Part shown: positions 15,956-48,945 of the stretch, in pieces
How positions within the stretch are numbered: the first letter of the stretch is position 1
Layout: the number at the start of each line of letters is the position of its first letter
NCBI RefSeq assembly: GCF_022201045.2
Contig: NC_068560.1
Span: forward strand, 33,567,001 to 33,631,000
Reading direction: 5' to 3'
Length of the DNA stretch: 64,000 nt
Source: Citrus sinensis
Taxonomy: Eukaryota > Streptophyta > Magnoliopsida > Sapindales > Rutaceae
Translations under genes and position numbers: made by a program
Notes under the pieces: model-generated
Database searches by the model: none
The model's input: only the letters and a program-made list of their open reading frames with translations
Told to the model about the DNA's origin: nothing

Positions 15956-16195
15956 ATGGGGCAGAAGCTGGGAGAGGAAGTTGCCAGAGCCGAGGTGGCT
16001 GCGCCGAGATTCACTGCCAAGAAAGGAGGAATCATTCCGCCCAAAAGGAAGTCAGTGAAGAAGATTATAGGTATTGAAATAGCCCAGTCTGTTTCTTCTC
16101 TTCTCCGTTTATGCTGCCTTTCTTCGAAATCCCCTGAAGATCCATCTATTAACACTAACAGTAATAGTTGCCCGAAAATGGAAAAACAAAATTAG
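15956..16195 (+). CDS. Small basic protein, family member A (79 aa)
   Basis: Unrecognised small protein. It starts MGQKLGEEVARAEVA and carries the family core GGIIPPKRKSVKKIIGIEIA at residues about 24-43, followed by QSVSSLLRLCCLSS with a Cys pair and a polar, Ser/Asn-rich tail. The core aligns with four other ORFs in this window (29701, 37131, 40011, 48733), and that repeated conservation is the main reason to call it a gene. The core is a Pro-Lys/Arg cluster followed by an amphipathic stretch; no signal peptide or membrane segment is evident. A second Gly follows the initiator region (MGQ), so N-myristoylation is conceivable but not assured. Function unknown. Confidence 0.65.
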   Translation: MGQKLGEEVARAEVAAPRFTAKKGGIIPPKRKSVKKIIGIEIAQSVSSLLRLCCLSSKSPEDPSINTNSNSCPKMEKQN

Positions 16196-19100
16196 GGCAT
16201 CAGTCTCATACGTTAGCGTACAAAACCATCAAAATTTCACTTTATATAGAGCTTTTTTTATAGTGAAAAGCACCTACCTATATCCATACCCCTTCAGTTA
16301 ACTTGCACTTTTTCTTTTTCTTTTTAAACTTCTATTTCATCTTGTGTTGTACGATTATTATATCAAATTTCTTGTGATTGGAATTACATGCAAGCGTCTC
16401 GTGTACTTTTGTACTAGCAGCAATATCAATATAATACGTATCATACACTGATGGAGTGAAAATTAACTACATTTTTATCCCATCAGTTACTATTTTAATT
16501 AGTAATAGCACTTGTATGAAAGTTGTTTCTCTCAGCTTTCTTTTGTTCAAACTATTTGTTAATTCATGTCCCTTGATCTCCCGCCTTCAAGCAAAAAGTT
16601 GGTGTTAGTTAATTCGTGAGAATGATGGATAGAGAGAGACAAAACACTTTAATAATTTCACTTCATTCTTTAAAGTAGGCACCATTGTATCTTTGACACA
16701 TCTGGCCAAATCTTTAAAGATTTACAAGAACGTAATTAGTTGGGGTCACACGGATGACTGATCCATGATCTCTAAAGTTTAAAAGTACAAAAAGAAATCA
16801 TTTCTAATTTTTCGCTCCATGTGCAAATCATATTTTTCATTACAAAACAAACTTTTTTTTTTCCCGATGGGTTTTGTTCTTTTCCATTCTATGAACAATT
16901 TATTCCTCTTCCATTTTTATATTTCTGTTTAATTTTAAATAACTTCAACATAAATTAATATGGACGCAATGTTCTAACTATTAAACTATACGTGCGGTTG
17001 GTGAGTATTTTAATATAACGGTTAAAAGCTTATTTGGTTTCTGTATTTTAATATCAGTATCCATTTAGTTTTTATATTTTTAAAAATATCTCAAAATATT
17101 AAAGTATTAATATCCCTATCATTACTTTTTATTTCTTTTCACTTACTTTTACAATATTATCCTTTTATAATAATTTTTTTGTTTGGACATTAATAAAAAG
17201 AAAATAATTAAATTATCAATTTAACCCTATAAAATTAAAATATATATATATATATTAATTTTTTTGTAAGCACCATTTGCACACTTGGTAGTTTGCATAC
17301 AATTTTTGATAATTAAAAATTAATATAATTTTTTTTAAGTTTTAGGATTAAATTGATAATTTAATTATTTTCTTTTTATTAATTTCTAAATAAAAAATTA
17401 TTATTAAAGGGTAATATTGTAAAAGTAAGTCAAAAGAAATAAAAAATCACGGTAGGGGTATCAATACTTTAACGGTAGGAATGTTTCGAAAATTTTTTAA
17501 AAATATAAGGACTAAATGGATACTAATCTTAAAATACATGAACTAAATGGACTTTTACCTTTAATATAACTATTGAACTTAATTTATTCTTACAGTTTCC
17601 TAAGAACCTTTTTTCTTGGCGAAACAAACATTTATGCAGTTCAAGGTTGATCATCTGCAAATGTTTTTACGCAATGCAAGCCGGGCCCTGCTTCACTCTC
17701 TTTAGGACCCTTTAACTTGAAACCACTCGTTTATCGAAAGTACCTACCCGGAAACTTCTCTCCAATTCTTGATCCTTAATTTATTTTTACTGTTCAATTA
17801 AATTCTGAAATCCTGTATTCAGTAAACTTTCACTTGCGTGTGAACTTTTAAAATTGATCAGGAAAGCAATTTTGTAGCAATTTCTTAGAATTTCAATAAA
17901 CATGACAGTAAATTGTAAACCCCAAGTGACAATCCATGACCAAACTCAAGCAAGAAAATTTTTGCGGCAAAAAGAACCTTGAATCCCGGCATATCGGTAT
18001 CTTTTGGGACATCCCACCATTCAAACTGAAGCAAGAAAATTGAAAATTGGTTTGTTTGTGGGGCAGCTTATTGCATTATCCTTATTTGTCTTCATAATTT
18101 TTATTTGTCTTGTAGGTAGGTAGCTGTATGACCATCGCTTTCCCATTTAATAATGATATTCTTTTGGGTCGTATTTGAACCTGGATCTAAGATTAAGATA
18201 TGTGCATTAAATAACCTCCGGAAATCGTCTCCTTTCCATCATTTTAATCTTTACTTTTTTTTTTGGGGGTCCGTACGTTCAAAGATCTGTGATATTATTT
18301 TAATTTATTAACTTAATGCGTGGCCCTGGTCCTCGTATGGTTGATTTAGAAAAATAATTGACGGTAAGTTTGACTAAATTAGATCAGATGGTGAGAGTTT
18401 AATTTTATTTTTTTATGTGATTTAGAAAAATATCACATGAATACATACAAGGGCGGATGTAGCATGTGACTAGTGAGGGCTTGCTCTCACATGCAGGCAA
18501 AAAAAAAAAATTCTAAAATTAAAAAAGAAAAATATTTTAATTTTCTAATTAGTCCCAATACAAAATTTATTAAAATAATCACTATAAATTATAAACCCCC
18601 ATAAAATTTAAAATTTAACTTTTAAGAATTATAAAACTTATATTTTAATTAAAAATAATGATAGTCCACCACTCAAAATATTATCTATTCTCAAAATTAG
18701 GATTAATTCTTCCAGTCTTTATAATAATACTAGAGCGTACGTTTTTTGTAATGAAACTCATGAAGAATCATCTTTGGAATCAAATGAGATAAATGATAGT
18801 TTAGTTGTTTATATAGGAAATAATAAATTTAATAATATTGATAATAAGTCTATTGCATAATATTTTTAAAATACGAAAATGCATAGATAATATTATAAAT
18901 GTATTAACAAATATTTTATATATTCAAAATTTTAGTTTTTCATATTTTACTATTATCTAATTTAACCCCCGGTAAATTATTTTTCTAGATATGTCACTGA
19001 GTACCTAGCCATTGAACTGTGTCAACCATGCACCAACCAGCAAGTAACACGGAAGACATTATGGTTGATTAGTCAACGAGATACTAGAATATATATATGT

Positions 19101-19369
19101 TAGCTTAGGTAAAATTAATGTCCGATAATTTTTAAGCAGTATTTTGTTGAATGATTAATTGGTGGTTCTGTTAATTTCATAGAGATATATAATTAGATTC
19201 GTCAAGAAACCAAACTTGAATAGCCTTAAACCAAGAAATTCCAATTCGACATATATACGAGATATCGAAATTTTAACACAACTTTGAGGGGAGACCATAA
19301 TTATAACTATAAACTAATTTAAGATGATTGGCACTTATATTATAAATAAAAAAGCATAAAATGTTTTTG
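16196..19369. other. Gene-poor tract with transposon remnants
   Basis: No coding region supported. It contains the MITE at 17020-17559 and a segment around 17790-17960 that resembles 25070-25200 (CTTGTATTCAGTAAA-type sequence followed by TTTCACTTG), evidence of older duplication. The remainder is AT-rich. Confidence 0.5.
17009..17570. mobile_element. Mutator-like MITE with long inverted arms and TSD
   Basis: A 540-bp element at 17020-17559 has arms of roughly 200 bp in inverted orientation. The left end GGTTAAAAGCTTATTTGG corresponds to the inverse of the right end CCATTTAGTTC...GACTTTTACC only approximately, but inner arms match well (TATCAGTATCCATTTA against its complement near 17515). It is flanked by an 11-bp direct repeat TTTAATATAAC (17009-17019 and 17560-17570). 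Long terminal inverted repeats with a 9-11 bp target duplication suggest a Mutator-type non-autonomous element. No transposase is encoded. Confidence 0.7.
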
Positions 19370-19990
19370 TTTAATAGAAACATTTTGGTCATTTTCAAAT
19401 TTCTGACGAAGTAATTGTGACGGTTCTTTCCACAATCAGTCAATTATTATGATCGCTCACTTTATGCTAATTGTTCAACCACTCTTTCAACTTTTTCTTT
19501 TCTGTTCAACGATGGAATGATAAAATGATCAAAATAATGTGATAGGCTGATAATGAATTAAGTCCAATGCACACAAGAAAGTTTTGAAAAAGTTTTTGGA
19601 AATATCGATCTATAGCTTTATATCATTGATCAAAATAGATAAAAACAAGCAATTACACCGTTTTTTGGAGAGTTGTTTTAGTTTCTTTCAATTCTCATAA
19701 AAGCATTTGTTGTGTTAAATTTCCCATCAGCTCCAGCTTGATCTCAATATTTCCTTATTAGCGTATCAGTACTATCATTTACTGTTCTCCTGTTCAAAAT
19801 CTTTGAATCCCTTAAATTGGAATTGTAAAATTTGATTTTTCCCTTTGAAGAGTATAATCTAGCTAGTTAGGCTTGGTCAAGAATTTCATGATCACCAAAC
19901 CATCTGATTAAGCCACTAAACTTAGAGATAGAAAAATTAATCAATTACTTGGTTTCAACTTAGCCAAGAAATGTCCAAGAAACTTCCTAG

Positions 19991-20041
19991 CTCGAAATTA
20001 TTTATAATTAAAAGGCTCGAAATTATTTATAATTAAAAGGC
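19991..20041. repeat. Short tandem duplication
   Basis: GCTCGAAATTATTTATAATT plus AAAAG is present twice in direct succession, a unit of about 25 bp. Confidence 0.85.
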
Positions 20042-20188
20042 TTTAGTAATATAATTTTATGACCCTAGTAATTTAGTTCCAATGTGACAGTAAGTTGCTC
20101 AAAGTAATCAATTTCCAAATGAAGATAAAGACATGAGTCATGACCACCTTGCCACAATATTACTAAAGGGTCATATGTGTGTGTGTAT

Positions 20189-20495
20189 ATCAAAATCTCC
20201 AATTATGTATCATGCATGCATGTGTGTGTGTGTATAGTTTTTCTCTAGTGCTAACATCCTCATTTTTTTAATGCGGACACACTCTTAAAACCCATGAGGT
20301 TTAATAAATTTATTTCTAAATGAACTATAAAGTCGTGCCGTTTAAGAGAGTTAAAATCTTAACTCTATTAAACCTTATAGTTTAAAAGCATGTCTGTATG
20401 AAAAAAAAAATAATGTGAACACTCGCACTAGAGAAAGACTATACACACACATACATCCACAAATACATACATGATAAATGATTGGAGATTTTGAT
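20189..20495. mobile_element. Foldback (long inverted repeat) element
   Basis: The left arm begins ATCAAAATCTCCAAT and the right arm ends ATTGGAGATTTTGAT. Inside, TATAGTTTTTCTCTAGTGC on the left matches the inverse of GCACTAGAGAAAGACTATA on the right. Arms are about 100 bp with mismatches and a spacer of about 100 bp. Target duplication is not clear. Probably a MITE or foldback element. Confidence 0.6.
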
Positions 20496-20830
20496 AATCT
20501 AAAAGATATTGCGTTGATTGGATCATCAATACTTTTGATTGAAGTGTTATATATGGGTTGGATTTTTACCAAGAAGTTCATTTGAACTACTTATAATTTA
20601 ATATACATCTAGGGTCTATATAAAATATTGTCCAAGTTAACAAGTAATTCCGATTTCAGTTATTTTTCACAATGATACCGGTGCTTAATTTGTTTTGAGA
20701 GACGATTTTAGATGAGTATCGCGGTAAAAGTGTCTTTTGTAGTGGTAATTTTCGGATGTTGGTCAAGTTTACTGCAGCAAGGAATTTACCATTGGCTTAT
20801 CCTTGAAAAAATTAAGTTCAAGTCTCGTAC

Positions 20831-23800
20831 GAAGGAAGTGCCAAAATTTGAAAATCAACACACTGACTTTTTACCTTGAATATTTTGTCACGTTCTCACA
20901 TAGTTACATTTAATAATCAACAATAAGAGCCAACATCTCAACAGCTAGCAGAACCTTCTTCTAGTTATATATTTTTCTGCAAAAACCACGTAATTCCAAA
21001 ACTTTTGTGGCTCGGTTAGAGCATGCACCCCTTTGACAAGTGAGTTGGACTCTTCACGAGTTTTCAGTTTGATAAATTTCACAGAAACTTCTCACTTTGA
21101 TCGTTAAATTTTCACTCCCGTGTGTGAAATTCAAGATTCATAAGAGAATAAGATGACCACTATCGACAGAAATGTCTGTGGCATCATCATGGAAAGTGAT
21201 TTCTGTGCGAATTTCTACTGCAATTACATATATATATGTATGTATGTATGTATCATGTATGTATGTATCGTTAATTGTCAGCTACTGAACCCAGTTATTA
21301 AAGCCTTTGTTGATGGATGAATCATAAATCAAGACCAGACCCAAAAGGACGGTATTTTCTTTTTCGTTTCCAGCTTCCGAATTTATTCATTTAGGTCCAA
21401 CTCAGGTTAGTGACTTAACCAGTTTAGTCCACGCACGTAAATCGCTTATGTTGACTAAGTCAAAAGGCCGTTATTGGCCGTCAAAAGAAGCGGGAGTGAC
21501 AGCTGGTGATTGTTATGCTCTGACAAACTCTCCTAATTATAGAATTATAGCTGATTTACCGCCTTTCTATAGATAGAGATTTAGAGCTATAGAGAAAGAA
21601 ATTCGGGAAAGTTTCCTCTTGAGATAAGCTCTATGTGGTATTATATAAACACTCGTTATAGTAACTTAGAAGCTAAATTGATTTCATTCTACATTTATAT
21701 AACGAAAAATTTACATTATTTTAATTACTTTTGTCAATATTATTATTTAAAAATTATATTTGTCACATATTATTAAATTTTATTTTATAGTGATATTTTT
21801 TCTTAAGTAATAATGACTTTGAAGACGCAATATTTTTTTTTTCTCTTTCAAAAATAAAAGAGAAAATTAAAAAAAAAAAGAACATTCCTTTATGCTTTCT
21901 TTCGTAGTTGACATTGCTTTTGTTGCTTTTGTGCAATGCTATCAAAAATGGTAGAGAAGAAAGTGGTGGACAACATCCTTCTAAACCTCTCATTTGATTG
22001 TTTCACTTGTATTCAAGTTAGACCTAGAAAGTTTTGATAATTAGGGTTATACTTCATATACCTTTTGAGTCATTAATGGAAATGTTTTAAGATTACTTTG
22101 GTTTAATTTTCACCGCATTTTTCATTTTTAGAATAAACTTTTGTAAGGATTTGCAAAGGCTTCAGGATTGCAAGAGTTCGGGAAACTTAGAACATATATA
22201 TTAAACTTGTATTTTCGAATGGGGACTTAAGTGAGAATAGCGGCCCACAACTCCGCCTAATTTAAATAGTTTGGGCTTTTTGACATATTAAAGAGGAGTA
22301 AAGACTGTAAAGTTATTTAGCACCCCTTTATTATCCTTATAAAACCCAACTTCATATAAAATTATAATTAAAGACACATAAGAATTAAATACATCAAGAT
22401 TTTTTTCAACAAATTACTTACATTTATAATCAATTCTTTTTTTATTTTCTACTTGTTACTTCCTATATAACTAACATAAATTGCATAATTTTAGAATAAT
22501 CTATAGTTCTTTTTCTATTTCTTATTGATTAAATATGTTTCTACTTAAAATTGCTTTCAAATTATAATCTAAAATACGTATAATTTATGATTAAGAATAA
22601 AAAATTAATCACTGAAAAAACTTTTAATTTGTATGTAAGGTAACATTAAGATTGCAAAAGAGGGGAAAAAAAGCACAATACGACTTTGAGTTTTAACAAT
22701 AAAAAAATTAAATGAAAAATAGAAGAGTGTATTTGAAAAAAAAAAGAAATATTTTTGGAAATAAAATAAATGTAACTGAAAAAGGGATATATATAGAATG
22801 TACAATGTAAAAGTTAATTTTTTAAAATTCGTATGTAAGTGTAAATATTAATAAAGTATTTTGAAAAAATTTTAGAATGTAAGTAGCTTCAACCGTAAGT
22901 TTGATAAAAATCACTTTAACTTCCCAACCATAGCTACAAATACAATGTTTACAAATACTTTAATGTAAGTCACATCTCCCCCAACAACGATAGCAAGTAT
23001 TGTCAAAGACTTTACTGCAAACCACAACTCCCAAACAACAATACCAAACTGAGTGTAAATGCCAATTTGGTAATGTTTTAGCATTTAAAATCATTATTAT
23101 TAGTTGTGCTATATAATTAATCAGTTCTGAAGAGAATTAACTAAATATTTTTGTAATTTGTTTTTGAAATACTCTTATTTTTAAAAATAATCATATGTAT
23201 TTCATATATCTTACTTCTAAACTATTGTAAGAATACAAATGATTAAAATGGACATAATATTAAATAATATTTATGTACGCATTTATAAACATGTACATAT
23301 AATATTTTTTTATTATGTATATGTAATAATTGATTATTGGAATAAATATTTTTTTTTATTTTGTCATCACAATATAATTGGTGGTTATAATAAGTCTTTA
23401 AACTTAATAATTGTATTTTCTATTTGAATAGGGAAAATTTTATATATATATATGAAACTGTGTTAAGTATAATACTGATTCTCAAAATCAGATTTTGAAA
23501 AGTTACTCTTTTCCTGTTTTTAACTTTTCAAAATCTGTTGTACACTGGCAAAATGCTTTTAGAAAAATTTATCAAACACTAATGTTAATTTTGTATATTT
23601 TTAAATTACTTTTCAACATTTCAAAAGTAATCTCAAATAGGTTAATTGGCCGGAGCCAAAACACGAAAACAAGAAAACAAAATTTAAAAGTTAATAGAAA
23701 CAAATTAAAACCTTCCTGTGACTTCGCAATAGACCAAAACAAAGTTACAACAAATTTATTGGAGTCAATTATTGATGCAACGCTTTTTATACGAAAAGGT

Positions 23801-28472: not shown

Positions 28473-29463
28473 GCCATTGCCTGCCTTGCTGTTATCTCGA
28501 ACTTTGTCAGATTCGTACATATTTTATTTTTTATTTGTATTTTTTGATAAATTGTACATATTTAGTCAACCAATAACAAATTAAACAAATCATGGACTGG
28601 GACAAAACTACGTTACAGAATCTGTAAGGTACAGACTGCAGCATCAGCCGTTGGATGTGGTTGGATGTGGAGTGAGAAACTAAACAAAAGAAAATCGGAT
28701 GGTGGGATGACGGGAGATGTTTGTTACAGAATCTGTAACATAGACAGGTCCACAAATCATGATCTCAACTGGCCCGAACACGTGGGGCCAGCTGAGAATA
28801 TTTTAGTAATGTTTTCCTGCGAACGTTAATGACATCCACACGTGGGGGACGGAAAGCCGGTAACTATCATGCTATTTCATAAGAGACAGCGGGCCACGTT
28901 GTTGAGTCCTATTCGCAGCCAGCTGTAGAAATATTTTCCGCATTTATTTTATACGCGCATGTGATTTTTATTTTTTTATAACATATATTCTTTTTTAAAT
29001 CACGAGAAAGAGACTAGCCCATTAAAATCAATAATACCAATTACTTCAAATAAATTAACGATGATTGCAATTTAATTACTTAGACGTCTCCATTAAAATT
29101 GTAGTAAAACAATTTTTTTTTTTTCATTTAGAGGCTGACAGATTTATCTCTCAAGTTCACTACATATTAAAAAAGTTTAAATTAATTAAGTTGTTGGCCC
29201 ATTTCTTATTGTTTGCTTTTTTTTTTTTTTTATGCTTCTTATTGTTTGCTTAAGAATTGATTTATTGTTGGATTTTGGTGAAAAATCACGATTAGCAGAA
29301 ATAAATGAGATTCATCATTTATAGCACTACCCGCACAATTTATGTGCCAACTTTTGCTGGATAGAATTTTGCTAATTAATAAATGAAGTGCCGACTGACG
29401 TAAAACCAGTGAGTGAATGACGTGGGCACTGTCCGGCAACTTATATGCCAACTTGCTTGTGCA

Positions 29464-29473
29464 GACACGTGTC
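29464..29473 (+). promoter_or_regulatory. Perfect G-box palindrome upstream of member B
   Basis: GACACGTGTC, a 10-bp palindrome with the CACGTG core bound by plant bZIP and bHLH factors. It lies about 230 bp before the ATG and 120 bp before the TATA box. The corresponding place in the paralogue upstream of 37131 reads ATGACGTAAG, so the CACGTG core is not shared. Confidence 0.5.
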
Positions 29474-29591
29474 TCAGCAAGGAAACTTCTTTACAATTGC
29501 TTGCCCTCCAAGCTTTCATTCTCACTGCCCCAAAATCAAATTATGAAAAATTCCCACAATTTTTCACGGTCGTTCACGCTTCTCTCTCAAA

Positions 29592-29598
29592 TATAAAA
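29592..29598 (+). promoter_or_regulatory. TATA box of member B
   Basis: TATAAAA about 103 bp before the ATG, conserved in position in the duplicate gene (37023-37029). Leader length would be about 70-75 nt. Confidence 0.65.
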
Positions 29599-29700
29599 GC
29601 GGTTAAATTTAACCAAGAAACATAATTTCGCATAGAGTGAGTCCTAATCTTTTAATTCGTCCAGCTTACTAGGGCCAAGGCTTGAGCATTTGAGACAGAG

Positions 29701-29898
29701 ATGGCGGTGAAGGTGAACCCAAGTGATGAAGAAATGGTCACGTCAAGGGCTGAGGCTAAGGCTGAGACATATTGGTTCAAGGCAAAGAAGGCAAGTGTGA
29801 TCCCAGCACGGAGGAGACTTGTGAAGCGAATGGTGTTTGATTGCTTGGTCCAATTTCTGGCTTCGCTTTGCTCCAACTCCCACAAACCCAAAGTGTAA
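29701..29898 (+). CDS. Small basic protein, family member B (65 aa, possibly longer)
   Basis: Starts MAVKVNPSDEEMVTSRAEAK and carries the family core ASVIPARRRLVKRMVFDCLV at residues about 31-50, followed by QFLASLCSNSHKPKV. The near-identical gene at 37131 keeps the reading frame despite nucleotide changes and a 6-bp (two-codon) indel, which supports coding. A GTAAGC donor overlaps the stop (29895) and a TTACAG acceptor ends at 29970. Splicing would remove 76 bp and extend the protein to 76 aa with a Cys-rich tail VVCFCCCSTGYL. The unspliced form stops at KPKV. A TATA box and G-box lie upstream. No known domain recognised; the Arg/Lys cluster could be a nucleic-acid or nuclear-targeting signal, but this is guesswork. 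Confidence 0.75.
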   Translation: MAVKVNPSDEEMVTSRAEAKAETYWFKAKKASVIPARRRLVKRMVFDCLVQFLASLCSNSHKPKV

Positions 29899-30507
29899 GC
29901 TAAGATAAGGTCGTCTGTTTATTATATATCTTGTTGGTTCTAACCTTGTAAACTGGGTCTTGAATTACAGAGTGTGCTTTTGTTGTTGCTCCACTGGTTA
30001 CTTGTAAATGTTTTGTCTGTATATTGATGAGTCATCTTTGATTCTGTACCTGAGAGTGGAGTTTCTCTCTTATGATATTTAGATGGATCTGTGCTCTTTA
30101 TCAATTGGGCGACATGATCAAATCAAATCCTCAGCTATATACATAAACATAGCGCAAGAGAAATAACATAATTAAGGACTTAATCTTAAACACCATATAT
30201 GATGAAAGATTACATATTTTCCGGGAAACAGGGCCCCTTCTATTTGTCTAATGCATGTTCTAACTTGCAATTTCCACCATTCAAAAAAAAAAAAAAAAAA
30301 GAGACCTGTAATTTCTCTTTAAATGATAATTATCACTATGATCAATCCAACAAACGCACAATTACCCGCCAAGGTTGAGGCTTCGGGTCAAGACTTGGGT
30401 GGGGTTCCGGCGGAAGAGAGAATTTGGGCTCTGATCAAGCCGATTCCAAATCCCGATTAAACCGCTTGGCTTTGCTCCAATTAAAGTCTTGGACTGAAAC
30501 AACCTCG

Positions 30508-31070
30508 CGAAGGTCGTCGGAAACTCAGATCGGTGCTGTTGGGTGCTGATGATTGCAGGCGTCGGCATCGCATAGACCATCTGCAGAGCAAAAGCCTGCA
30601 AAAAGGTTTACTCAGTCGGAAATTTTGATCGGAAAAGAAGCTGTTTTCGACGGAGAGGAGAATTTTTTTCCTCGTGACGTGACCCTTTTCTTCTCTACTA
30701 GAAAGTGAGTCAGTGCAGACTGTGCAGTAGATGAAAGGAAGAGAGAGAAAAAGAAAAGTTAATTTGAATCCATGTATTAAATAAGAAAATATATATATAA
30801 AGGTCTTCGGGAACTCAGGTTGGTGCTGTTGGGTGATGATGATTGCAAGAGTTGGCGTCGCATGGACCATCTACAGAGCAATAACCGGCAAAAAGGTTTA
30901 CTCCGTCGGAAATTTAGATCGGAAAAGAAGCTGTTTTCGCCGGAGAGGAGAATTTTTCCCCGGTGACAAGACCCTTTTTCTTCTTTGACTAGAAGGTGAG
31001 TCAGTCCAGTCGATGAAAGAAAGGGGGAGAGAGAAAGAAAAGTTAGTTTGAATCCATGTATTAAATAAGA
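30508..31070. repeat. Internal tandem duplication, about 290-bp unit, left copy only
   Basis: The order TCGTCGGAAACTCAG, GTGCTGTTGGGTG, GGTTTACTC(A/C)GTCGGAAATTT, GATCGGAAAAGAAGCTG and TTTGAATCCATGTATTAAAT occurs twice (about 30508-30799 and 30800-31070) but once in the right copy of the large duplication (about 37958-38230). It arose after, or was lost from one arm of, the larger duplication. Confidence 0.8.
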
Positions 31071-31387
31071 CTAAATAATTGAATTAAAATACAGGCACTG
31101 GAGCACACCACGCCGTTCTTCGTTTCGCATTCCGAAGAAACGTGATTAATTTTTCATTAAACAAATGAACTTTTGATTGTGTCAATCGAAAACGATGTAC
31201 GGACACAGAGGAAACGATCATGATGATGATGATGATACATGGTCTCCCCCTAGCGAAACGAACATGTATTATTATATCAATAATATTAGGAAAACTAAAA
31301 GATGGATGATGGACGGTTAGATTCTTATACAGTTAGATTTATTTTTCCTTTTTTTTTTTCGCAATATGGAACAACACAGCTATGGTG

Positions 31388-35760: not shown

Positions 35761-37022
35761 ATTGTGGATAGAGCGTTTATCTCCCTATTTATTAGTAAAA
35801 GCAAATTTCCAACTAATCTTAACGCATTGTAATTTATGTATATTACAATAGTTTAATAATAATAAAAAAAAAGGCTTCCCGATGTTAGCCTATTTAAAAA
35901 TTACAGCAACTGGATTTCACAAATTATACTTCAATTTATAAGTTTGGAGTTATCCAAAGAGACTAGTTCACTAGGTTACTAAGCACAGTACAGCTGCTCC
36001 CTGAATAATACTGGAACAGCGGAGATTATAACTGCAAAATATTCAACAAATTCATTAATTCTTTTTAACTATTTTCAGATTTTTATGTTGTATGTTACCC
36101 TTGAGATATTGGTCAAATTTACTGCGGCAAGAAATTTATGTCTCTTTAATACTAAAAGTTGACACACGAGTAAAAGTAAATTCTCGTCTAGAAACAGCCG
36201 CAATATTTGAAATGCGAGCCCATTGCCCGAACTTTTTGTCAAATTCGTACACATTTATTTTTTTAATCATATATCAACAACAAATTAAGCAAATCACGAT
36301 CTCAACTGCCCCCAAGAGAAGCGTCTTTCGGCAAGAATTAATGGCATCCACACGTGGGGGCTGGGAAGCCATTAATTATCGTTGTATTCGCAATCAACTG
36401 TAGAAATATTTTACTCATTTATTTTATTCGTGCATGTGATTTTATTTTTTTTATAACATAAATTCTTTTTTTAAATCATGAGAAAGAGACTAGCCCATTA
36501 AAATCAATAATACCAATTACTTCGAATAAATTAACAACGATTACAATTTAATTACTTAAGACGTCTTCATTCAAATCGTAGTAAAACATTTTTTTTTTAA
36601 TTTTATAGGCTGACAGATTTGTCTCTCAAGTTCACTAAATATTAAAAAGGTACTAATTGATTAAGTTGTTGGTCCATTTCTTAAGAATCGATTTATTGTT
36701 GGATTTTGGTGAAAAATCATGATTAGCACAAATAAATGACATTCATCATTTATAGCACTACCCATGCAATTTGTGTGCCGACTTTGCCACATGGAATTTT
36801 TTTAATTAATTAATGAACCAATTAATTAGAGGTTTACATTTGAAGTGCCGGCTTGTGGAGGAGAATGACGTTGGCACCGCAAAGAGACAAAAAAATGGAT
36901 GACGTAAGCAAGGAATCTTCTATAGAATTGCTTGCCATTCAAGCTTTCATTCCCACTAATTCCCAAGATCAAACTATGAAAATTCCCACAATTTCTCACT
37001 GTCACTCAAGCTTTTCTCTCAA

Positions 37023-37029
37023 TATAAAA
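37023..37029 (+). promoter_or_regulatory. TATA box of member C
   Basis: TATAAAA 102 bp before the ATG at 37131, at the same place as in member B. Confidence 0.65.
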
Positions 37030-37130
37030 GCAGTAGACTAAACCAAGAAACATAATTTCGCATAGAGTGAGTCTTAATCTTTTAATTCGTCCAGCTTCGT
37101 AGGGCCAAGGCTTGAGCATTTGAGACAGAG

Positions 37131-37334
37131 ATGGCGGTGAGGGTGAACCCAAGGGATGAAGAAATGGTCACGGCAAGGTCTGAGGCTAAGGCTGAGGATG
37201 AGACATATTGGTTGAAAGCAAAGAAGGCGAGTGTGATCCCAGCACCGAGGAGACTTGTGAAGCGAATGGTGTTTGATTGCTTGGTCCAATTTCTGGCTTC
37301 GCTTTGCTCCAACTCCCACAAACCCAAAGTGTAA
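37131..37334 (+). CDS. Small basic protein, family member C (67 aa, possibly longer)
   Basis: Paralogue of the gene at 29701 within the large tandem duplication. Starts MAVRVNPRDEEMVTARSEAK, with two extra residues near AEDETYW, then core ASVIPAPRRLVKRMVFDCLV and the same QFLASLCSNSHKPKV end. Here the second core residue after VIPA is Pro, as in the gene at 40011, where member B has Arg. The same GTAAGC donor (37331) and TTACAG acceptor (ending 37416) are present. The 10-bp length difference between the two candidate introns is confined to the intron, and the predicted extra tail VVCFCCCSTGYL is identical. Spliced product would be 78 aa. Function unknown. Confidence 0.75.
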   Translation: MAVRVNPRDEEMVTARSEAKAEDETYWLKAKKASVIPAPRRLVKRMVFDCLVQFLASLCSNSHKPKV

Positions 37335-38178
37335 GCTAAGATAAGGTCGTCTGTTTATTATATATCTTGATGTAATTTGTTGGTTCTAACCTTGTAAACT
37401 GGGTCTTGAATTACAGAGTGTGCTTTTGTTGTTGCTCCACTGGTTACTTGTAAATGTTTTGTCTGTATATTGATGAGTCATCTTTGATTCTGTACCTGAG
37501 AGTGGAGTTTCTCTCTTATGATATTTAGATGGATCTGTGCTCTTTATCAATTGGGTGACATGATCAAATCAAATCCTCAGCTATATCCATAAACATAGCG
37601 CAAGAGAAGTAATATAATTAAGGACTTAATCTTAAACACCATATATGATGAAAGATTACATATTTTCCGGGAAACAGGGCCCCTTCTGTTTGTCTAATGC
37701 ATGTTCTAACTTGCAATTTCCACCATTCAATCCAAAAAAAAAAAAAAAAGACTTGTAATTTCTCTTTAACTGATAGTTATCACAATGATCAATCCAACAA
37801 ACGAAAAATTACCCGCCATGGTTGAGGCTTCGGGTCAAGACTTGGGTGGGGTTCCGGCGGAAGAGAGAATTTGGACTCTGATCAAGCCGGTCCCAAATCC
37901 CGATGAAACCGCTTGGCTTTACTCCAATTAAAGTCTTCGACTGAAACAACCTCGTGAAGGTCGTCGGAATCTCAGATTGGTGTTGTTGGGTGCCGATGAT
38001 TGCAGGAGTCGGCATCGCATAGACCATCTGCAGAGCAAAAGCCGGCAAAAAGGTTTACTCCGTCGGAAATTTTGATCGGAAAAGAAGCTGTTTTCGCCGG
38101 AGAGGAGAATTTTTCCCCGGTGACAAGACCCTTTTTCTTCTTTGACTGGAAGGTGAGTCAGTCCAGTGACTCCAGTCG

Positions 38179-38200
38179 ATGAGAGAGAGAGAGAGAGAGA
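38179..38200. repeat. GA microsatellite
   Basis: About 22 bp of GA repeats in the right copy of the duplication. The left copy has only a short purine-rich tract at the same place. Confidence 0.8.
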
Positions 38201-39119
38201 AAAGTTAGTTTGAATCCATGTATTAAATAAGACTAAATAATTGAAAATAAAAACAGGCACTGGAGCTGGAGCACATCACGCCATTCTTTCTTTCGCATTC
38301 CGAAGAAACGTGATTAATTTTTCATTAAACAAACGAACTTTTAACTGTGTCAATCGAAAACAATGTACGGACACAGAGGAAACGATCATGATCATGATGA
38401 TACACGGTGTCCCCCAAGCAAAAACGAACGTGTGTATTATTATATCAATAATATTAGGAAAACTAAGATGGATGATGGACGGTTAGATTTTTGGAAGAAC
38501 GAGCACAGCTATGGTGATAAAAATATCAATATAAATTTATTTAAGGGTCGTGATAAATAAATATAAAAATATTTATTATCATTAAAGAAGCATAAAAAGT
38601 GATTAATATAAAGAATTAGGATAAATAAAGTTTTAAAAATTTTAACGAAGTCACGTGAGAAAAATAGTGGTGCTATTTGAGAATGACAAAAGAAAAATAT
38701 TGTATTTTTGTTTCAAATCACTAATTAGGTAGCTTAGTGGGGGAAGCTTAGCCATGAGCAGTTGTGGTAACTGAAAATTGAGTGGATAAGGAGTAGAAAC
38801 AATATATATTGCTGAAATGCAATGAGATAAAGCCTCATCAAATCTTGAACTTTTTAATTGTCACTTAGATAACTATAAATAATTTTGTTAATTTTAGAAG
38901 TTGATGGTCACTTGATGAGCAGCCAATTAAGACTCTTTTTTTGATATATTTACACAGAACCAACGAAAGCAATACATCCAGCTATGCTTATCAGACAAAA
39001 GGGAAATGTCTTTTACTAGATTTGTAAAAAGAAAATCTTTAGCATCATGGAAGAAAACGTCAATTTACAAAAATAGCAAATTGATTTTTGTTCTAGAATT
39101 TCTTCCATATCAAGTTTTA

Positions 39120-39455: not shown

Positions 39456-40010
39456 AAGTACGTAATACCGACTCAATACAAAACCTCCATATGATGTGTC
39501 CTCGGATTTCCTTTAGTAATATTAAAAAAATATTTATTCCACCGTGGAAGGTTATAATGATCTTGGCAAGCGGAAATGACCAAAAGACCAGATAAGGATG
39601 TGATCACCATTACATTATTCAATTGACACTTTTTTTTTTCTTTTGGACCCTTCACTAAAAGTAATGAGGGTGTGTGGTTAGTGATTTGCTAGTATCGCTA
39701 ATCTAATTTTATTCGAGGTAATTAAAATTACACGAACATCACATCACATCAAATTGAATTCAACAGGGACAAGCTAGTGAGCACATGTATGTTTTGATAC
39801 GCCACTGGCTTTGTTAACGTCTACTATGCCCTAACTATACGTGTCAACAAATTACGGACTGCTTCGTCGCGAAGTTACACCCAGAACAGATCATCTCCAA
39901 TCTCTCTATTACACATAAAAAGCAAACATTTGGCAAATTCTTATTACCATATTGAAACACAAAAAACAAGTTAGAGAGAGAGATCCATTGAGTTGGCGAA
40001 GAAATTTAAA

Positions 40011-40241
40011 ATGAGCAACGAGGCAGGCAGGGTTAATAAAGTGAAACCAGCACAAGAAGAAACGGGAAAGGCCAAGATACAGAGTGTTGCCACTGTAATT
40101 CCAGCACCAAAGAAGTCAGTGAAGACAATGGTGTTTGAATCAATAGTCCAATCTTGTTCTTCTCTTTGCTCTTCTTCCTCTGGCTCCAACACTAAAAAAA
40201 ATGCCAAGAAGAGTAAGTATGTGTCCCCATATACTCCATAG
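40011..40241 (+). CDS. Small basic protein, family member D (76 aa)
   Basis: ATG at 40011 gives MSNEAGRVNKVKPAQEETGK, then core ATVIPAPKKSVKTMVFESIV at residues about 30-49, QSCSSLCSSSSGSN and a Lys-rich end (KKNAKKSKYVSPYTP). An upstream in-frame TTG at 39993 is not a credible start in a plant gene, so the ATG is used. The core matches members B and C in 12 or more positions. A strong donor, AGAGTAAGTATG, lies at 40213 inside the last codons, so a spliced form with a different C-terminus is possible (acceptors at 40320 or 40578). A weak TATA (CATAAAAAG) is near 39914. Function unknown. Confidence 0.72.
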   Translation: MSNEAGRVNKVKPAQEETGKAKIQSVATVIPAPKKSVKTMVFESIVQSCSSLCSSSSGSNTKKNAKKSKYVSPYTP

Positions 40242-40900: not shown

Positions 40901-41113
40901 ACATGTATGTAATCTTGTGCAATGATGAACATGTAGATTCTAATCTAATGTTTCTTAATTCCTAGCTTTATGTAATCATGGTGGGATCAATGAATAGCGG
41001 ATGATGAACATGTATGAAATCTTGTACAATGATGAACATGTAGATTTTAATCTAATGCCTATTAATTCCCAGCTTTATGTAATCATGGTGGGATCAATGA
41101 ATAACGGATGGAC
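40901..41113. repeat. Two tandem copies of a 107-bp unit
   Basis: ACATGTATGTAATCTTG... at 40901 and ACATGTATGAAATCTTG... at 41008 run in parallel to CATGGTGGGATCAATGAATA with only a few differences. Period 107 bp. Confidence 0.88.
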
Positions 41114-42218
41114 ACGACTTTTGAGACATGTAGGACCAAATTCATTAATCGAACGACAATTATATGTGTAGCACAAAATCTTTTATGTCCCCCACCTAAT
41201 TAACTCCAAGTGGAAACTTGGAAGCATGTGATCATCTTCAAATGGAGCATAATTACTAATTAAAGCTGCAACACATGGAAGCTAAGACGGAGGGAGTAAA
41301 AAAAAGTGCTTTAATATTCTAAGCTCAATTCTGAAAAATGCGTGTGAAATCTGCAATTGCTGTCACTATCGGTGAAATGGGCAAGGCGAAAATTGGCAGT
41401 TTACATATAAGGCAATCAATATAAAACTGTAACTGGCTACACACTAATTAATTCAATAAAAAGAACAATATTCTTCTACTCGTTAATTTGCCATTAATGA
41501 GAATCTCGTAAGCATTTATTCTGGCACTTATAATGAACATTAAGTTCCATGTTTATAATAAATATCGGAATATGTAGCAGCAATTTAGAAATATTTTTAT
41601 CCTGAGAAGGAGATTATGTTTATTTGCCACACCCCCGGAAAGTAAGGGAGTAAAGAAGCTGAAAAGGAAATCTTGATTCTTGTGGGGGTAATTTGTCACT
41701 TCCCAACTGCTCCCCTTTTACTGGTAACTCACTCATGACTCATTGGACCGACCAAGGAAAAGTTACATGAGAGAAAGGAGAGGAAAAAGAGAGAAGGCAA
41801 AATCCAGATCTGTCACTCGTAACGTTGGTGGATTTTCGAATATGGAGGCAAATAACAGTAAGAGAATTTGATAAGATTTGAAACGTGTTTGCACACTTTT
41901 TTTTTAAGGTTTTATTTATCCTCACCAATCTTGAGTTGCTATAGAGTTTTAATGGTAACTTACCTCCAAGATATAACAAATCCTTAATACAATCTCTAGC
42001 AAATAAAATTGTATTTCAAGAACACATATGAAATCTGTAATTTTCTAGTCTTTTAATGTAAAGTGTGTGTCTATTTTAATGAAGAAGATGTTTATTTGAA
42101 AGAATACAACCATTAGAAATGGTACTTCTTTAAAGACACTCTTTTGGTTTGAAATTTGTACCCATTCACAATTGAATTTTTTAAGTCTACTAACTGTTTT
42201 TTCAGTTGACGTGAAAAC

Positions 42219-42494
42219 ACGCTCTTTGGAAGAAAACGGTTAGCTGTTTTCTCAATAACGACGAGCCGTTTTATTCCAGAATGTCAAAATAAGTTGTTCT
42301 CTGGAAATAAACGGTTAGTCGTTTTATCCAAACGGTTAGCCGTTTTCTGTAGAACATAAAACACGCTCTCTAGATGAAAACGATTAGCCGCTTTCTCAGA
42401 AAACAACAAGCCGTTTTTTGCAGAATCCAAAACCTACTCTCTGGACAAAAATGGCTAGCCGTTTTATCTAAAACGGTTAACCGTTTTCTTTCTA
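42219..42494. repeat. Tandem repeat of about 70 bp built on a palindromic core
   Basis: About four units share AAACGGTTAGCCGTTTT, itself a near palindrome (AAACGGTTxxCCGTTT), followed by an ACACGCTCTCT- or CCTACTCTCT-type junction. Units start near 42219, 42304, 42373 and 42444. No ORF crosses it. Confidence 0.75.
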
Positions 42495-44526
42495 AATTTC
42501 AAATCACAAAATATTACAATCTCACTTGCACGTAATACATAAAATACCCACATCATAAATTAATAAATCAACTTAATAATTATAACCCTTATCCACGTGG
42601 GTCTAAAACAGTTAATTTATATCTGCGGCTGAAGTTTGTACGCTGCTGCATTTAGTTCCAGCCGTGGTTTAACAGGCTTGCTGCAACACAAAACTCCAAT
42701 GGCACACTGTCATAGAATGAAAAAGAAATTAAAAAGTGGAGCTCCGACTAGGTCACATGGATATAAGTAAAATCAAATGGTCGAAAGCTCATCAATTAAT
42801 AACATATCCGCAGGCTGCTAACGTGAGACAAGGCACCTATTAATTAGTGTTTTCCATCTCATCTTTTGACCATCTTTTTACCCACTTCTCTGGAAACGCA
42901 AATAAACTTTGATCTCCAAAATGCATGATGCATCGCATTCAGTAGGCTTTAATTTCATTAATACATGCCGTCTCATCGTTTTCAAATCAACTTTCTAGGT
43001 TCAAAGAATCTTCAGGTCATTTTATTTCTGCAAGAAGAGAAATTGACGGTTGTAATGAATTTGTATAATATTTATCTCCCTTACTAAAATCAATTTTAAC
43101 CAAAGATACTGCAGTGTGTTACCCTACAGATCAGATCAAATCGTGACCAGTTAAAAAATAATCTCTTCAAATATGCATAATCTTTTGGTTTGCTTCAAAA
43201 GGTAAAGATACAATCACAACAAAGGAAATAAAGCACCCTTTAGGCTTTAGTTCGTGAAAAAACTGGAGACTAGAAAAGGAAATTACTCCATAAAATGGGA
43301 CCGGCCGCAATATGAATAGTGAGATGATGCATGCAAAGATCTTCCTATTGGAATCTAGCTTTATTTGTATTCTAAACGACAAAATTAATTAATTCATTTT
43401 GGAGCAAAATTTTTGGTGACGTTGTTATTGGTGACGTAATGTTTATGAAGATCAAGAGTTCAATTTTGCGGGATCAAATTGTAACATAAAATCTTTGCCG
43501 TCCCATAAAAATATAAATTTTAATCACTGACCAAAAAGTGGCCTCTAGATAAAGACGAATATCCTGTGGCATATTTTTAAAATGACTTTTTTGTGTAATA
43601 TATGAAGACATCATTTATACCACTCAACGGGGAAAAAATGGGACATCTTGAATTAATTTAAGCTTGAGCAATAATGGGTACGATTCAGAAGCTGTAACCT
43701 TCTGGCTTTGATGTTGCTTGTCGTGTATTATCGTCCTTGCAAGTTGCAACCAAAGATAAAGGCATATAATAATTTAAATTGAACGAATTACAGTACGATC
43801 GTGAAGAAAAGAAAATCATTTATTTTTTCAACAAAGCGCTGGTCGGCGGCCTTTTTGTTAAACAGATCACGCGAAGTTTACGAATTACATGCATGGTTTG
43901 GGTTTAATTTATTCCGATCCTCTAGAATTAAATTATATATGTGCTTAAAATTCTGTTAGGCGTCAATTTTAATTCCCTGAAAATTAACCAGCTGGTCGAC
44001 GCGACGGTGACTTGACTTCCAAAGATCGTATGAGACAAAAGTCCCTCGGCCTGCTCTGGGGCTGGCGCGGCGGGCTGCAAGTATATATAATAACAAAAAT
44101 CTTTATCCAAATCAATGTGGGTCTCAAACGTTGATTTTACTGGCATGCAGATGCCGATGGTGATCACGAACTCGTCCACTGCTCTACTTGTTTTTGTACG
44201 TGGCACCCAAATGATCATGCCCTTTGACGTTTTTCTCTCCTTTCATCGGCCGGCAATACTTTTTTAATAATCTCAAGTCTCAACTCCATTAATGAAGTTG
44301 TCTAATTATTGTCAAGAATGAGAAGTACGACGCTGATAATCACACCCACAATTGAATTGTGCATGTATGTGCTCACTTTGGATTAATTATGGGCAATGAA
44401 CGTCATGCACCGACCCTTCGGCAGAGCTGGTGCATTAGTGGCTTATCCAAGGCGAAATGGTCAATCACATCACATCTCATCTAGCCAAGTTCACAATTGT
44501 TTGTATCATTGTATGTAAGGATCCCT

Positions 44527-44633
44527 CTAAGTTATATGCATGTACCTTACACTCCTCTCACATGAATAGTGAATGGACCCACATCATTTACTATTCATGT
44601 GAGAGGGGTGTAAGGTACATGCATGTAACTTAG
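44527..44633. repeat. 44-bp inverted repeat with 19-bp spacer
   Basis: Left arm 44527-44570 and right arm 44590-44633 are inverse copies with two mismatches. Inner sequence TCACATGAATAGT faces ACTATTCATGTGA. As RNA it would form a long hairpin. Confidence 0.85.
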
Positions 44634-46858
44634 CATTAACCTGTATGTAATTATGTGAGTTGATAGCTTGATGTGATGTACTGCACGCCTTGCAGGCTGC
44701 AGCTGGTGCATGGCCTACGTACCAACTTTTTGCAACAAGAACAGACATTCAGTAGACAAATAGACATATTTATTTATAGGGAAATTATTAATAGTATCCT
44801 TTATAGTTGATTTATTATAAAAAAATATTATAATATTTTAAGAGTGTATGAATCATCTATCATAAATTGATAAAATTATCTGTCAATCATCAAACCGTTA
44901 GCTACCATTTGAAAGTTAATGGAATTATAGTAAATTAACGATTTTACCCTTGAAATTTAAATTAAAATAAAAAAAAAATTATCAATTGTATCATATGAAA
45001 AAACTAAATTACCCTTTTGGCGTCACCCTATTTAAATGGTAAGTAATAGTTTTATGGATGGTAGATACATTTTGTCAACTTAGGGTGGACGATTAATACA
45101 CCCTTAAAGTATTGTAATATTTTTTATAATAGAGCAACTATAAAATATACGAATGATAATTTCTCTTTTTTATATTCAGCAAGATTTCATCTTACTGATT
45201 TATTATTACAATGACATGCATAATTTTATATTTATATATACATAACACTATTCTTATTAATTTCTTTCTCCACTTACTGTCACTATTCTAATAGTAATAA
45301 CTTAGTTCGTGATTTTAACAGTTTCATCTAGTGCTCCACTTACTGTCACTATTCGGCTCTGTCTCTTTGCTTTCTGATTAGTATTAAAAATTGTTTAATT
45401 ATCAAGCGATAATATGTTATTTTATGCTTATGTTATAATTTATATTTGTGTTTATGTAATATATTATGAATTATTAATTATGTTTTAAATATATTTAATT
45501 TTGTGTATTTTTATGTGTTTATTAGGAAAATTATTAATTTCATGTACTTCGAGGCTCCAAACAGATAAACGAAGGTCAAATTTGGATTCCGGAGGTCCGA
45601 AAACCTTAAGATCAGTCAAGATCGGCTTAAAATTGGACTTGTGTATAAAAAATTGACTTTTCCTGTTGACCGAGCACTGATTGGATGATGAAATGAGCTT
45701 ACAATAGATATGAGTGCATGGGATAACTGGAAATCTTGACTAAATCTCAACCGTTCATGATTCAATGGCCATGATTGTGCCACGTGGCAATGGTTGGTGA
45801 AGCAAGTTGGAGGATCCGAATCTTTGTATTCGGGTCGACCCGATCCACCCATTAACCTGCCAAATCTCAACCGTTCTTTGGGTAAATCGGACGAGTCAAA
45901 TGATGCCATGTGTGATGTTGACTTTTGAAGTTTGACCAGCCATTGGATCTTGATCTAAGGGTTGTGAGAAGCACATGCATGAAGCCTATGATGGACCGCA
46001 AAGCACTAGATTATGAATTTATTTTTCTATAAATAGAGCCTCATTTTTATGTTTTAATCATCTCTTTACAACTCTCTTCTTCTCAAATTCTCTCCATCTC
46101 CTTGTAATCTTGATTTCCAGGTGTGTTTTTAATATTTTGTATAATTATTTTCATTAATAAAATTAGTTTTATTTCCAATTTTAGTTGTTTTTATTTCTTT
46201 TAATTATAAGTAATTCAATTTTACTACTTCTTTTTATTTTAATTATGCTTAACTAAATAATATTAGTTAGGGGAAGGTGAAACTCTTAAGAAATAAATAT
46301 GATTTAATCAAATTCTATGTTTAATTTTATAAATTAAATTATTTTCTATTTAATTTTATACATGTTTTATATTTTGAAAATTTGATTTATTGTAGACAAA
46401 CAAATGAATTTGGCACAATAAATTCTTAAGATCTTAATATAAGGCATGGTGAAATGGTATTTTGACTTATTGTAGACAAATTAAATTTTGGCACAATAAA
46501 TACTTAATCCATAATAAAATTAAAGGGAAAATAATAATAATTTGTATAATTAATCTTTTGGGTAATAAATCTAAAACAAGTTGGCAAAAAGAATTTATTA
46601 AGTTTTATTTATTTCTAAGAGTGGATCCATAACCATAACTAGTTCAATTCCATAGTTTCATTTAAATTAAGTTGTTTATATTCAAGTTTTAATTTCAATT
46701 TTTAGATAAAATAAAATAAACTAATTAAATCTTTTCTCTGTGGATCGACCTCGGACTCACCGAGTTATAATACAACAAGACACTCTTATACTTGGGAGTT
46801 AAAATTTACTTTTAAGTTGTGTCACTTTCTACGGACAAAAGCCCAAGAGTAGAACAAA

Positions 46859-47340
46859 AGACAGCTTAGGGATGGCAAAATCCGGATCCGGGTCCGGGTC
46901 CGGGTTTAGCCTTTCCGGATCCGGACCCGGATAATATTTTCTTTTCCCGGACCCGGATTTTAACCCGAATTTTTTCACCCGGGTCCGGGTTCAACCCGGA
47001 AAATTCCGGGTTTCCGGATTCCGGGTTTTGAACCCGGATCAATGAATCAATATTAATTTCTAAAATTCTAAAAATAAAAAATTAATACATTTCTAAACAA
47101 TAACACATTTAGATTAATCAATAAAATTAATTAAAAAAATAATATTAAAATTAAATATCCGGTTCCGGATGTCCGGGTTAACCTAAACCCGGACCCGGAC
47201 CCGGATATATCCGGGTTATTAAAATTTATTGCGAAACCGGATTTTTTTATATTCCGGTGCGGGTTCAACCCGGCCCGGATTATCTGGGTTCATCCGGGTC
47301 CGGGCCGGGTCCGGATTATTTTGCCATCCCTAAGACAGCT
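46859..47340. mobile_element. hAT-type MITE (466 bp) with perfect TIR and TSD
   Basis: The element at 46867-47332 starts TAGGGATGGCAAAAT and ends ATTTTGCCATCCCTA, a perfect 15-bp inverted terminus. It is flanked by AGACAGCT at 46859-46866 and 47333-47340, a perfect 8-bp duplication. Subterminal CCGGGTCCGGG-type repeats are shared with the 27745 element. The interior is AT-rich and non-coding. Confidence 0.92.
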
Positions 47341-48326
47341 AATGAAGGAGACAAATTGATAAATTCCCCAACTTAGGTTTGCCGACCCGTTCCGCCCAGG
47401 GGCTTTGAATTGGAGGATTTCTAATCAGCAATTAAATGAAACATTGTCATACATTTATTATTATTACTGAATAAAGTTCTCTCTTTCTCCAACAGGTTAC
47501 TAAATTATAAATTCAATCTCCTGCTTAAAGTGCCATCTTAAATAAATCCATTCAAATTTCAAACCAGGATTATTCATTTATTTGTTTGTTTAATGACAAA
47601 TTATGCATGATTTGAGTAATTAACAATAGAGTGGCAACTCTAATTCCACCTCAACCACACAAAAGTAAATAAAAATTAAAACATTTTAATGAATACCCTT
47701 AAAAGTTTGAATTAACAATAAAGTTGTTCCAAATTATTGTCTTAATAGGGTTGAGGTAAGGCACATTGGTGGGGTTGCATATCATTTTTCTTATGGTACA
47801 GGTGGCAGTTTGAAGGTTTTAAAATTATAAAGGCAGTGTAAAATCTAAAACTGAATTGCAAAGGGCAGTTTCTAAAACTTTCAAATTTGCAAGGGTGGTT
47901 CTGATATTATACACGAAGAGAAAAAAAAAATCACTGCCAAGGGGAGGCCAATACTCCTATTTTTTTTTTTTCGCAAACTAATAATCACAATTGACGATCC
48001 TCTGCTATTTAAGGTGAAAATATATCGATTGTGAGTATTATTTTGTTTGATTTTATTTTCTTTGAGGTCAATTTTTCCTAATGAACATTCGTTATATTTT
48101 TATTAGGTGTACTTCGTGATTGGTTGGTTCAAAATACAAAGAACAAGAAATAAATGGACGTGTATAATAAAAATACCACTACATATTTGATTGTATAAAT
48201 CAAGAATTATTAATCCTATATCTAAGGTGAATGCACTTGAAGAAAAGCCAAGCCATATTGTGGGAAGGAAGATGGGGATTGGTGAATAAGCAAACTGACA
48301 AAATTCATCAACAATATTTTTGAAAC

Positions 48327-48329
<3 letters not shown>

Positions 48330-48373
<44 letters not shown>
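48330..48373. repeat. TA dinucleotide microsatellite
   Basis: About 22 TA repeats. Confidence 0.95.
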
Positions 48374-48376
<3 letters not shown>

Positions 48377-48646
48377 TAATTGAGTGATCGATGCATGAAT
48401 GAAACTCACTTTCGGATTCTAGAATGGGGCCGGCCACGTGCCACAAAATTAGTTGGAGCTGAGACTTTGACGTATACCTGGTGACGTCATGAATGAGGTA
48501 TGGCTTAAAAAAGCACTATTCCGATATGGGAAGCCTCACATAGTTACTATGAGTTCTCTTGTTGGATTGAAAAATGTAACAAATAAAAGTTCAAGAGATT
48601 ATGACAAAATTAATAAACACGCATGACTCAGAAATTCTTATCTGAT

Positions 48647-48649
48647 ACT

Positions 48650-48681
<32 letters not shown>
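48647..48681. repeat. CTCACC hexamer repeat
   Basis: Five to six copies of CTCACC lie 52 bp before the member E ATG. The unit is not the plant telomere repeat (CCCTAAA). Confidence 0.9.
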
Positions 48682-48732
48682 TAAGTAGCTGGCTTAGCCG
48701 CTGCTGTGTGTTGAGAACACAAGAAGAGAAAA

Positions 48733-48945
48733 ATGAGTGAAGCCAGCAGGCAAGGAGGAGGCAGCGAAGAACCCAGAAGTAGTGGGGCAGCTTACGGCTC
48801 TGGCGGGTCCAGGCAGCCGGTCAATGCCGTCGGCTGCAGGGAGAGGCCGATGGCGCCGCCCAAAAGAGGAAATGTTATCAAGACGATTTTCAATGATCTG
48901 CTCTCTCGCGACCCACCGTCTCGCGACCCACCGCCATCACGATGA
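48733..48945 (+). CDS. Small basic protein, family member E (70 aa), divergent
   Basis: Starts MSEASRQGGGSEEPRSSGAA, Gly/Ser-rich, with RPMAPPKRGNVIKTIFNDLL at residues about 38-57. This aligns with the family core (P-[AP]-x-[KR]-[KR]-x-V, then a hydrophobic segment), but the K after V is Ile and the following identity is low. It ends with a short duplication of SRDPP. In the overlapping +1 frame (48737) there is another open stretch, but only the 48733 frame carries the core. Membership is therefore likely but weaker than for members B-D. Confidence 0.55.
   Translation: MSEASRQGGGSEEPRSSGAAYGSGGSRQPVNAVGCRERPMAPPKRGNVIKTIFNDLLSRDPPSRDPPPSR

Follow-up and report, generated by a model that had tools for sequence, protein, structure and literature searches.

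Among the described small plant proteins, two groups come closest to the genes considered here. PROPEPs, which are leaderless phytocytokine precursors, occur in tandem clusters and have an N-terminal helix, and VQ proteins, which are transcription co-factors, are defined by the motif FxxxVQxxTG. Passages of one report describe PEP and systemin precursors as having no predicted signal peptide, place Propep1 and 6 at the tonoplast and give arginine or lysine as the cleavage preference of metacaspases (PMC13157962). Excerpts of another describe VQ proteins as small and as contacting WRKY, MAPK and CaM (PMC10573558). With these systems we compared a stretch of 64,000 nucleotides from Citrus sinensis (contig NC_068560.1, positions 33,567,001 to 33,631,000 of the forward strand; hereafter the window), in which four genes, starting at positions 15956, 29701, 37131 and 40011, almost certainly form part of a real family of small, mostly basic plant proteins, as judged by profile comparison. 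We propose that these proteins may act inside the cell as small adaptors with two points of contact. To the statement as a whole, a clustered small-protein family together with this mechanism, we give a chance just below even.

Four related genes in the window

A preliminary description of this DNA had proposed five open reading frames (ORFs), i.e. the four above and one starting at 48733, as real genes of one family, lying on one strand and expanded by local duplication. All five were found at these starts by ORF listing and sequence check, and all are on the + strand; the start at 40011 is internal to a longer ORF that begins with TTG at 39993. Member 1 (15956..16195, 79 amino acids, core aligned at 16010..16105) appears to be a divergent old lineage. 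Members 2 (29701..29898, 65 amino acids, core aligned at 29776..29871) and 3 (37131..37334, 67 amino acids) are the halves of a recent tandem pair, with a TATAAAA 109 and 108 bases upstream of their respective ATG. Member 4 (40011..40241) has 76 amino acids.

Homologues were collected by three protein searches. The first, with 37131 as query, returned four proteins, namely the two window copies, one 91% near-copy and the more distant P0004. The second, for which core rows of P0004, 15956, 40011 and 48733 were padded with X, returned 12 proteins, including some from Punica, Liquidambar and Crotalaria. The third started from the cores of the Punica, Liquidambar and Crotalaria proteins, from that of 48733 and from one composed row; of 99 candidates, 70 proteins had E ≤10 in 5.8 billion. 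From the 77 proteins collected (P0001-P0077), we removed 7, one of them truncated and the rest window-gene copies or near-copies, which left 70 outside homologues, seeds included.

A profile hidden Markov model (HMM) of these 70 homologues was then searched against the 2062 six-frame stop-to-stop ORFs of the window. Four ORFs stood far above the rest: 29701 (83.4 bits, E 1.6e-24), 37131 (74.6 bits, E 8.6e-22), 15956 (53.0 bits, E 4.2e-15) and 40011 (51.2 bits, E 1.5e-14). The best window ORF after these reached 6.0 bits, and 40 windows generated by Markov chain peaked at 10.1 bits. A model of the core only gave the same four members, at 40-67 bits, with the next window ORF at 8.8 bits (E 0.12). 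Homologues with a conserved core are found in many eudicots, and the claim of real genes of one family therefore stands for these four members.

The same claim fails for 48733 (48733..48945, + strand), which we rejected as a fifth member. It scored 1.7 bits with the full model (E 33, rank 45 of 1703 listed ORFs) and 2.5 bits with the core-only model (E 11, rank 21 of 1708 listed ORFs); hhalign gave a probability of 5%, with a P of 0.0073 that is uncorrected for the choice among 105 ORFs of at least 60 amino acids. Its likeness to the family comes to little besides PPKRxxVxxxI, and the only match to it in a protein search of the genome was the ORF itself. Since 48733 fails these profile tests, the family has four members in the window. 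This ORF, which carries the stretch PPKRGNVIKTIF, may be a separate small gene, in single copy in the genome by protein search.

Could the four ORFs be chance or decaying sequences and not genes? The point for this reading lies in the recent pair. The preliminary description had taken a ratio of nonsynonymous to synonymous change near 1 as speaking against genes, and the 29701/37131 pair does come near that value (6 nonsynonymous and 2 synonymous differences, proportions pN 0.040 and pS 0.046, pN/pS near 0.86), with only eight differences and hence little power. In five older pairs, compared over the 21-codon core, pS was 0.46-0.77 vs. 0.23-0.48 for pN; the other two frames of the three pairs tested gave pS 0.27-0.65 vs. 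pN 0.28-0.57, which makes the excess of pS over pN in the core weak evidence. Against the chance reading stand the core common to homologues in many eudicots, the tail element described below, present in half of them, and null scores far lower than those of the four members. We regard the four ORFs as genes because of this conservation across species, which is stronger evidence than the eight differences of the pair, and find a non-genic origin hardly credible.

Spread, clustering and history of the family

The best homologues outside the search seeds were Punica P0012 (E 1.6e-17) and then Camellia P0016 (E 6.4e-16). Named sources comprise Vitis, Punica, Liquidambar, Carya, Carpinus, Fagus, Prunus, Malus, Melia, Crotalaria, Camellia, Nepenthes, Beta and Chenopodium, which represent rosids, Saxifragales, Caryophyllales and Ericales. 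The search requires exact shared words, so that the spread beyond these groups is not delimited by it. By profile, uncharacterised proteins of Punica (CDL15_Pgr012681/012677), Liquidambar (L1049_027249/027251/027254), Vitis (VitviT2T_027010) and Beta (BVRB_1g010400/010410) belong to the same family as the window genes. The database labels of the named homologues are hypothetical or uncharacterised, with one 'Filaggrin-2 like' as the exception, and the precomputed Pfam column lists no domain for such uncharacterised proteins. Neither the motif strings and six locus tags, searched in the main texts of open-access articles, nor calmodulin-motif terms, searched in the open-access literature, led to a paper. 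By sequence comparison, the family is widespread in flowering plants and without a name in the databases searched. An unnamed and often clustered eudicot family with two recurring motifs represents a gap in plant annotation; being short, its proteins have probably been overlooked in many genomes, and the motifs suffice for building a profile and counting clusters.

We then looked for other family genes in the searched genome (299.7 Mb, 11 contigs; the window lies on contig C5). Whole-genome protein searches with Liquidambar, Punica, Prunus, Melia and jgi/ena relatives each recovered all four window genes or three of them, and all matches under E 0.02 were window family genes. Member 40011 was weak in two of these searches (E 0.61 and 0.20) and missing in one, 15956 was missing in another, and matches on contigs C2, C7 and C9 had an E of at least 2. 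The genome appears to hold a single family cluster, in a search that scored only the best first-look candidates.

Copies also seem to lie close together in other plants, where closeness was judged from locus-tag numbers and not from DNA. Close tags on contigs of equal length were found in six named genomes, e.g. Punica (012677/012681) and Liquidambar (027249/027251/027254), and likewise Nepenthes (002745/002748/002750), Carpinus (018407/018411), Prunus campanulata (004860/004866) and Beta (010400/010410). Tandem clustering therefore looks like a trait of the family. The proteins of Malus domestica and Prunus armeniaca, on contigs of unequal length, show no sign of clustering, and two Carya proteins come from separate assemblies, both from chromosome 16.

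The expansion by local duplication claimed at first was retained in part. A blastn self-comparison of the window revealed a duplicated segment on the + strand, with copy A at 28910..31326 (holding member 2) and copy B at 36385..38492 (holding member 3). In long alignments, the two reach 86% identity (1928 columns) and 88% (545 columns), with single pieces at up to 98%; they represent a recent segmental copy. A recent origin does not fit 15956 and 40011, which stand on separate branches of a tree built from 43 short rows (39 hand-picked from the 70 homologues, and the four window genes; 12 of its 40 inner branches are starred). In this tree, 29701 and 37131 are paired (99/95) and then joined by Logan P0004/P0007 (94/90). 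Carpinus 018411 and two jgi proteins group with 15956 (96/87), on a long branch that is separate from those of the remaining window members. Another deep branch holds 40011 with Logan P0009/P0049 (91/79); this grouping is not starred. The pairs from Carpinus and from Prunus campanulata each divide between two groups, with modest support. Because 15956 and 40011 group with outside proteins and these two pairs are split, the array is probably old: it would predate the separation of these plants, and the 29701/37131 copy would have been added recently.

Protein layout and possible modes of action

The core proved longer than first described. It reads F-[KR]-P-K-x-[GA]-[SG]-V-I-P-[AP]-K-R-[KR]-[LS]-V-K-x-M-M-F-[DE] and continues into one predicted helix. 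The motif of the preliminary description, taken literally, occurs in three of the five window ORFs (29701, 37131 and 40011) and in none of the 70 outside homologues, 50 of which do carry its first part, through VKx[MI]. The core pattern itself was found in 70/70, with one proline, one arginine, one valine and one lysine each invariant, a further lysine in 69, and isoleucine and methionine in 63 each. The core is commonly preceded by F-[KR]-P-K and followed by F-[DE]-x-[IL]-V-x-[SF]-I-A-S-L-F. AlphaFold2 predicts one helix each for member 3 (residues 43-60, 37257..37310, + strand), with a mean predicted local distance difference test score (pLDDT) of 81 for residues 41-50 and 84 for residues 51-60, and for member 4 (residues 37-54, 40119..40172, + strand), with a mean of 94 in the block 41-50; the two predictions had overlapping input alignments.

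A second element, [IV][FY]P, recurs near the C-terminus. It is present in 35/70 outside homologues (29/59 without near-copies), against a mean of 0.6 and a maximum of 4 in shuffled sequences, and lies at most six residues from the stop in 25 of the 35 carriers. Under a stricter core pattern, which loses 5 proteins, it was found in 30/65. Our searches did not select for this element, because it was masked by X in the search seeds and is absent from the full-length seed of the first search. The layout consists of a variable N-terminus, a basic stretch, a predicted helix some 18 residues long and a linker that varies; half of the outside homologues add [IV][FY]P after it. A crude hydropathy test detected no hydrophobic N-terminus in 68/70 homologues or in the window ORFs.

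From this layout, our favoured explanation is an adaptor that works inside the cell. Being leaderless, the proteins would be kept there; the basic helix would dock on an acidic partner or a membrane surface and the tail on a second partner, while the linkers would be free to vary and the copies may diverge in their choice of partner. We hold this mechanism tentatively, at somewhat less than an even chance, and several observations weigh against it. The invariance of the core is inflated, as candidates were chosen by exact words shared with the core seeds, and the weakest of the 70 rows are marginal when taken alone (P0073-P0076, E 1.2e-3 to 9.2e-3; P0077, E 5.0). Outside the helix, the confidence of both models is low, with overall mean pLDDT of 61.9 for 37131 and 69.4 for 40011. 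The amphipathicity of the helix is unproven: a stripe appears only in the averaged profile, strongest at 85-95 degrees, and the helical moment of single sequences is no better than that of shuffles (0/61 in the top 5%). Finally, all four window members lack strict [IV][FY]P; 40011 has only a variant, its tail KYVSPYTP (40215..40238, + strand) being read from the alignment as a VSP form.

The basic core and the high isoelectric point (above 9 in 64/70 outside homologues) would also suit a nuclear or nucleic acid-binding protein, as the preliminary description had suggested, in which the basic cluster serves as a nuclear signal or binds DNA or RNA. Nothing in the remaining evidence points specifically to nucleic acid: no domain lies above cut-off, no solved relative was found, and the helix is a single isolated one. 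Pfam gave no match above cut-off for the 5 window proteins or for a set of 40 proteins, made up of 37 homologues out of the 70 and 3 window members, NCBIfam none at cut-off for the 5 window proteins, and the PDB none for one protein or the family profile. A match to the Mnt phage repressor (29701, E 0.021; 37131, E 0.026) covers 12 residues, is below cut-off and, although no other match bears a DNA-binding name, was taken as chance, and we consider such a role rather unlikely. Together with Mnt, other sub-threshold matches (sactipeptide, SCP2_Rv3818, DUF1117, DUF6540, Neurokinin B and others) were discarded as chance, different families being hit on different members.

A likeness to VQ transcription co-factors is suggested by the helix, whose FxxxVQ part would bind a WRKY-type partner: F-x-x-x-V-Q is present in 29701, 37131, 40011 and 14/70 homologues, in proteins that are likewise small. 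The family differs from VQ proteins in that TG never follows VQ (0/70). The complete FxxxVQxxTG was found in 0/70 homologues and 0/5 window ORFs, Pfam VQ matched none of the 5 window proteins (E ≤10) or of 10 homologues, and the residue at the glutamine position varies (Q21, K16, S8, N5, D4 and R4 of 69). To our knowledge, the VQ motif includes no basic stretch such as IP[AP]KRK. With the motif and the Pfam match missing, we rejected membership of the VQ family, and a VQ-like function is very improbable.

The tail bears on the main rival of the adaptor, that of PROPEP-like phytocytokine precursors, in which the helix would hold the precursor on a membrane and a metacaspase-type protease would cut at the lysines ahead of the tail to free the [IV][FY]P end as the signal. 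Like PROPEPs, the family members are small and, by the crude test, lack a signal peptide; their tandem copies and low model confidence outside the helix would fit. A lysine or arginine lies at most four residues before the tail motif in 27/35 carriers, a count that has no control and comes from lysine-rich linkers. The helix region of P0023 touches Pfam Pep1_7 (PF17232) at E 0.032, but with 15.1 bits vs. a cut-off of 26.2 bits, in 1 of 40 proteins scanned and on a par with chance hits to unrelated families, so that PROPEP membership is unsupported. Moreover, the family is most conserved in its core and not in its tail, whereas Rosaceae Peps are described, in part of one source, as most conserved at the C-terminus (PMC5782389). 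The family also differs in its conserved core and [IV][FY]P tail and in that SxGxxxxx[NH] near the C-terminus occurs in 0/70; SxGxxxxxN at any position was seen in 4/70 homologues, and within 40011 and 48733. According to passages of another source, SxGxxxxxN is the C-terminal motif of Arabidopsis Peps, and no Pep motif is strictly conserved, the motif differing among plant families (PMC4526913). Its absence is a weak argument, because the Pep motif varies in this way. We judge a PROPEP-like precursor unlikely. Its fuller version appears less likely again: across eudicots, leaderless signal precursors would be parked on a membrane by the helix and cleaved in the lysine-rich linker, freeing an [IV][FY]P peptide, and the old array would encode divergent signals.

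Other features of the window

The four family genes lie downstream of a tRNA-Arg (TCT) gene at 14885-14957 (+), detected by ARAGORN and Rfam. The preliminary description had placed each of its five ORFs in a gene-poor interval; two other ORFs scanned between this tRNA and an ORF at 56705 gave 0 Pfam matches. Dispersed repeats in the same part of the window (27745-27893/47184-47332 and 19378-19888/34489-34998) are about 70-72% identical. Further along, an inverted repeat (53874-54182/54381-54689) of 309 bases is 100% identical between its arms and has 14 matches in the genome in all, partial copies included. A nearby stretch of raised G+C (50-54 kb) may, as a guess, be an organelle-derived or mobile insertion.

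Towards the start of the window, two genes or gene pieces of the AMP-binding (acyl-activating enzyme) type, at 1538-3194 (-) and 10113-11490 (+), are inverted relative to each other and 69% identical over 1.3 kb. Between them, a glyoxalase At5g48480-like N-terminal domain (6861-7103) lies within 6861-7343 (+); this region is probably one intron-bearing gene, since a second ORF (7134-7343) continues in the same frame. At the other end, the window contains the start of a 2-oxoglutarate dioxygenase gene, with a DIOX_N domain, at 62984-64000 (+), the sequence of which presumably resembles gibberellin 20-oxidase.

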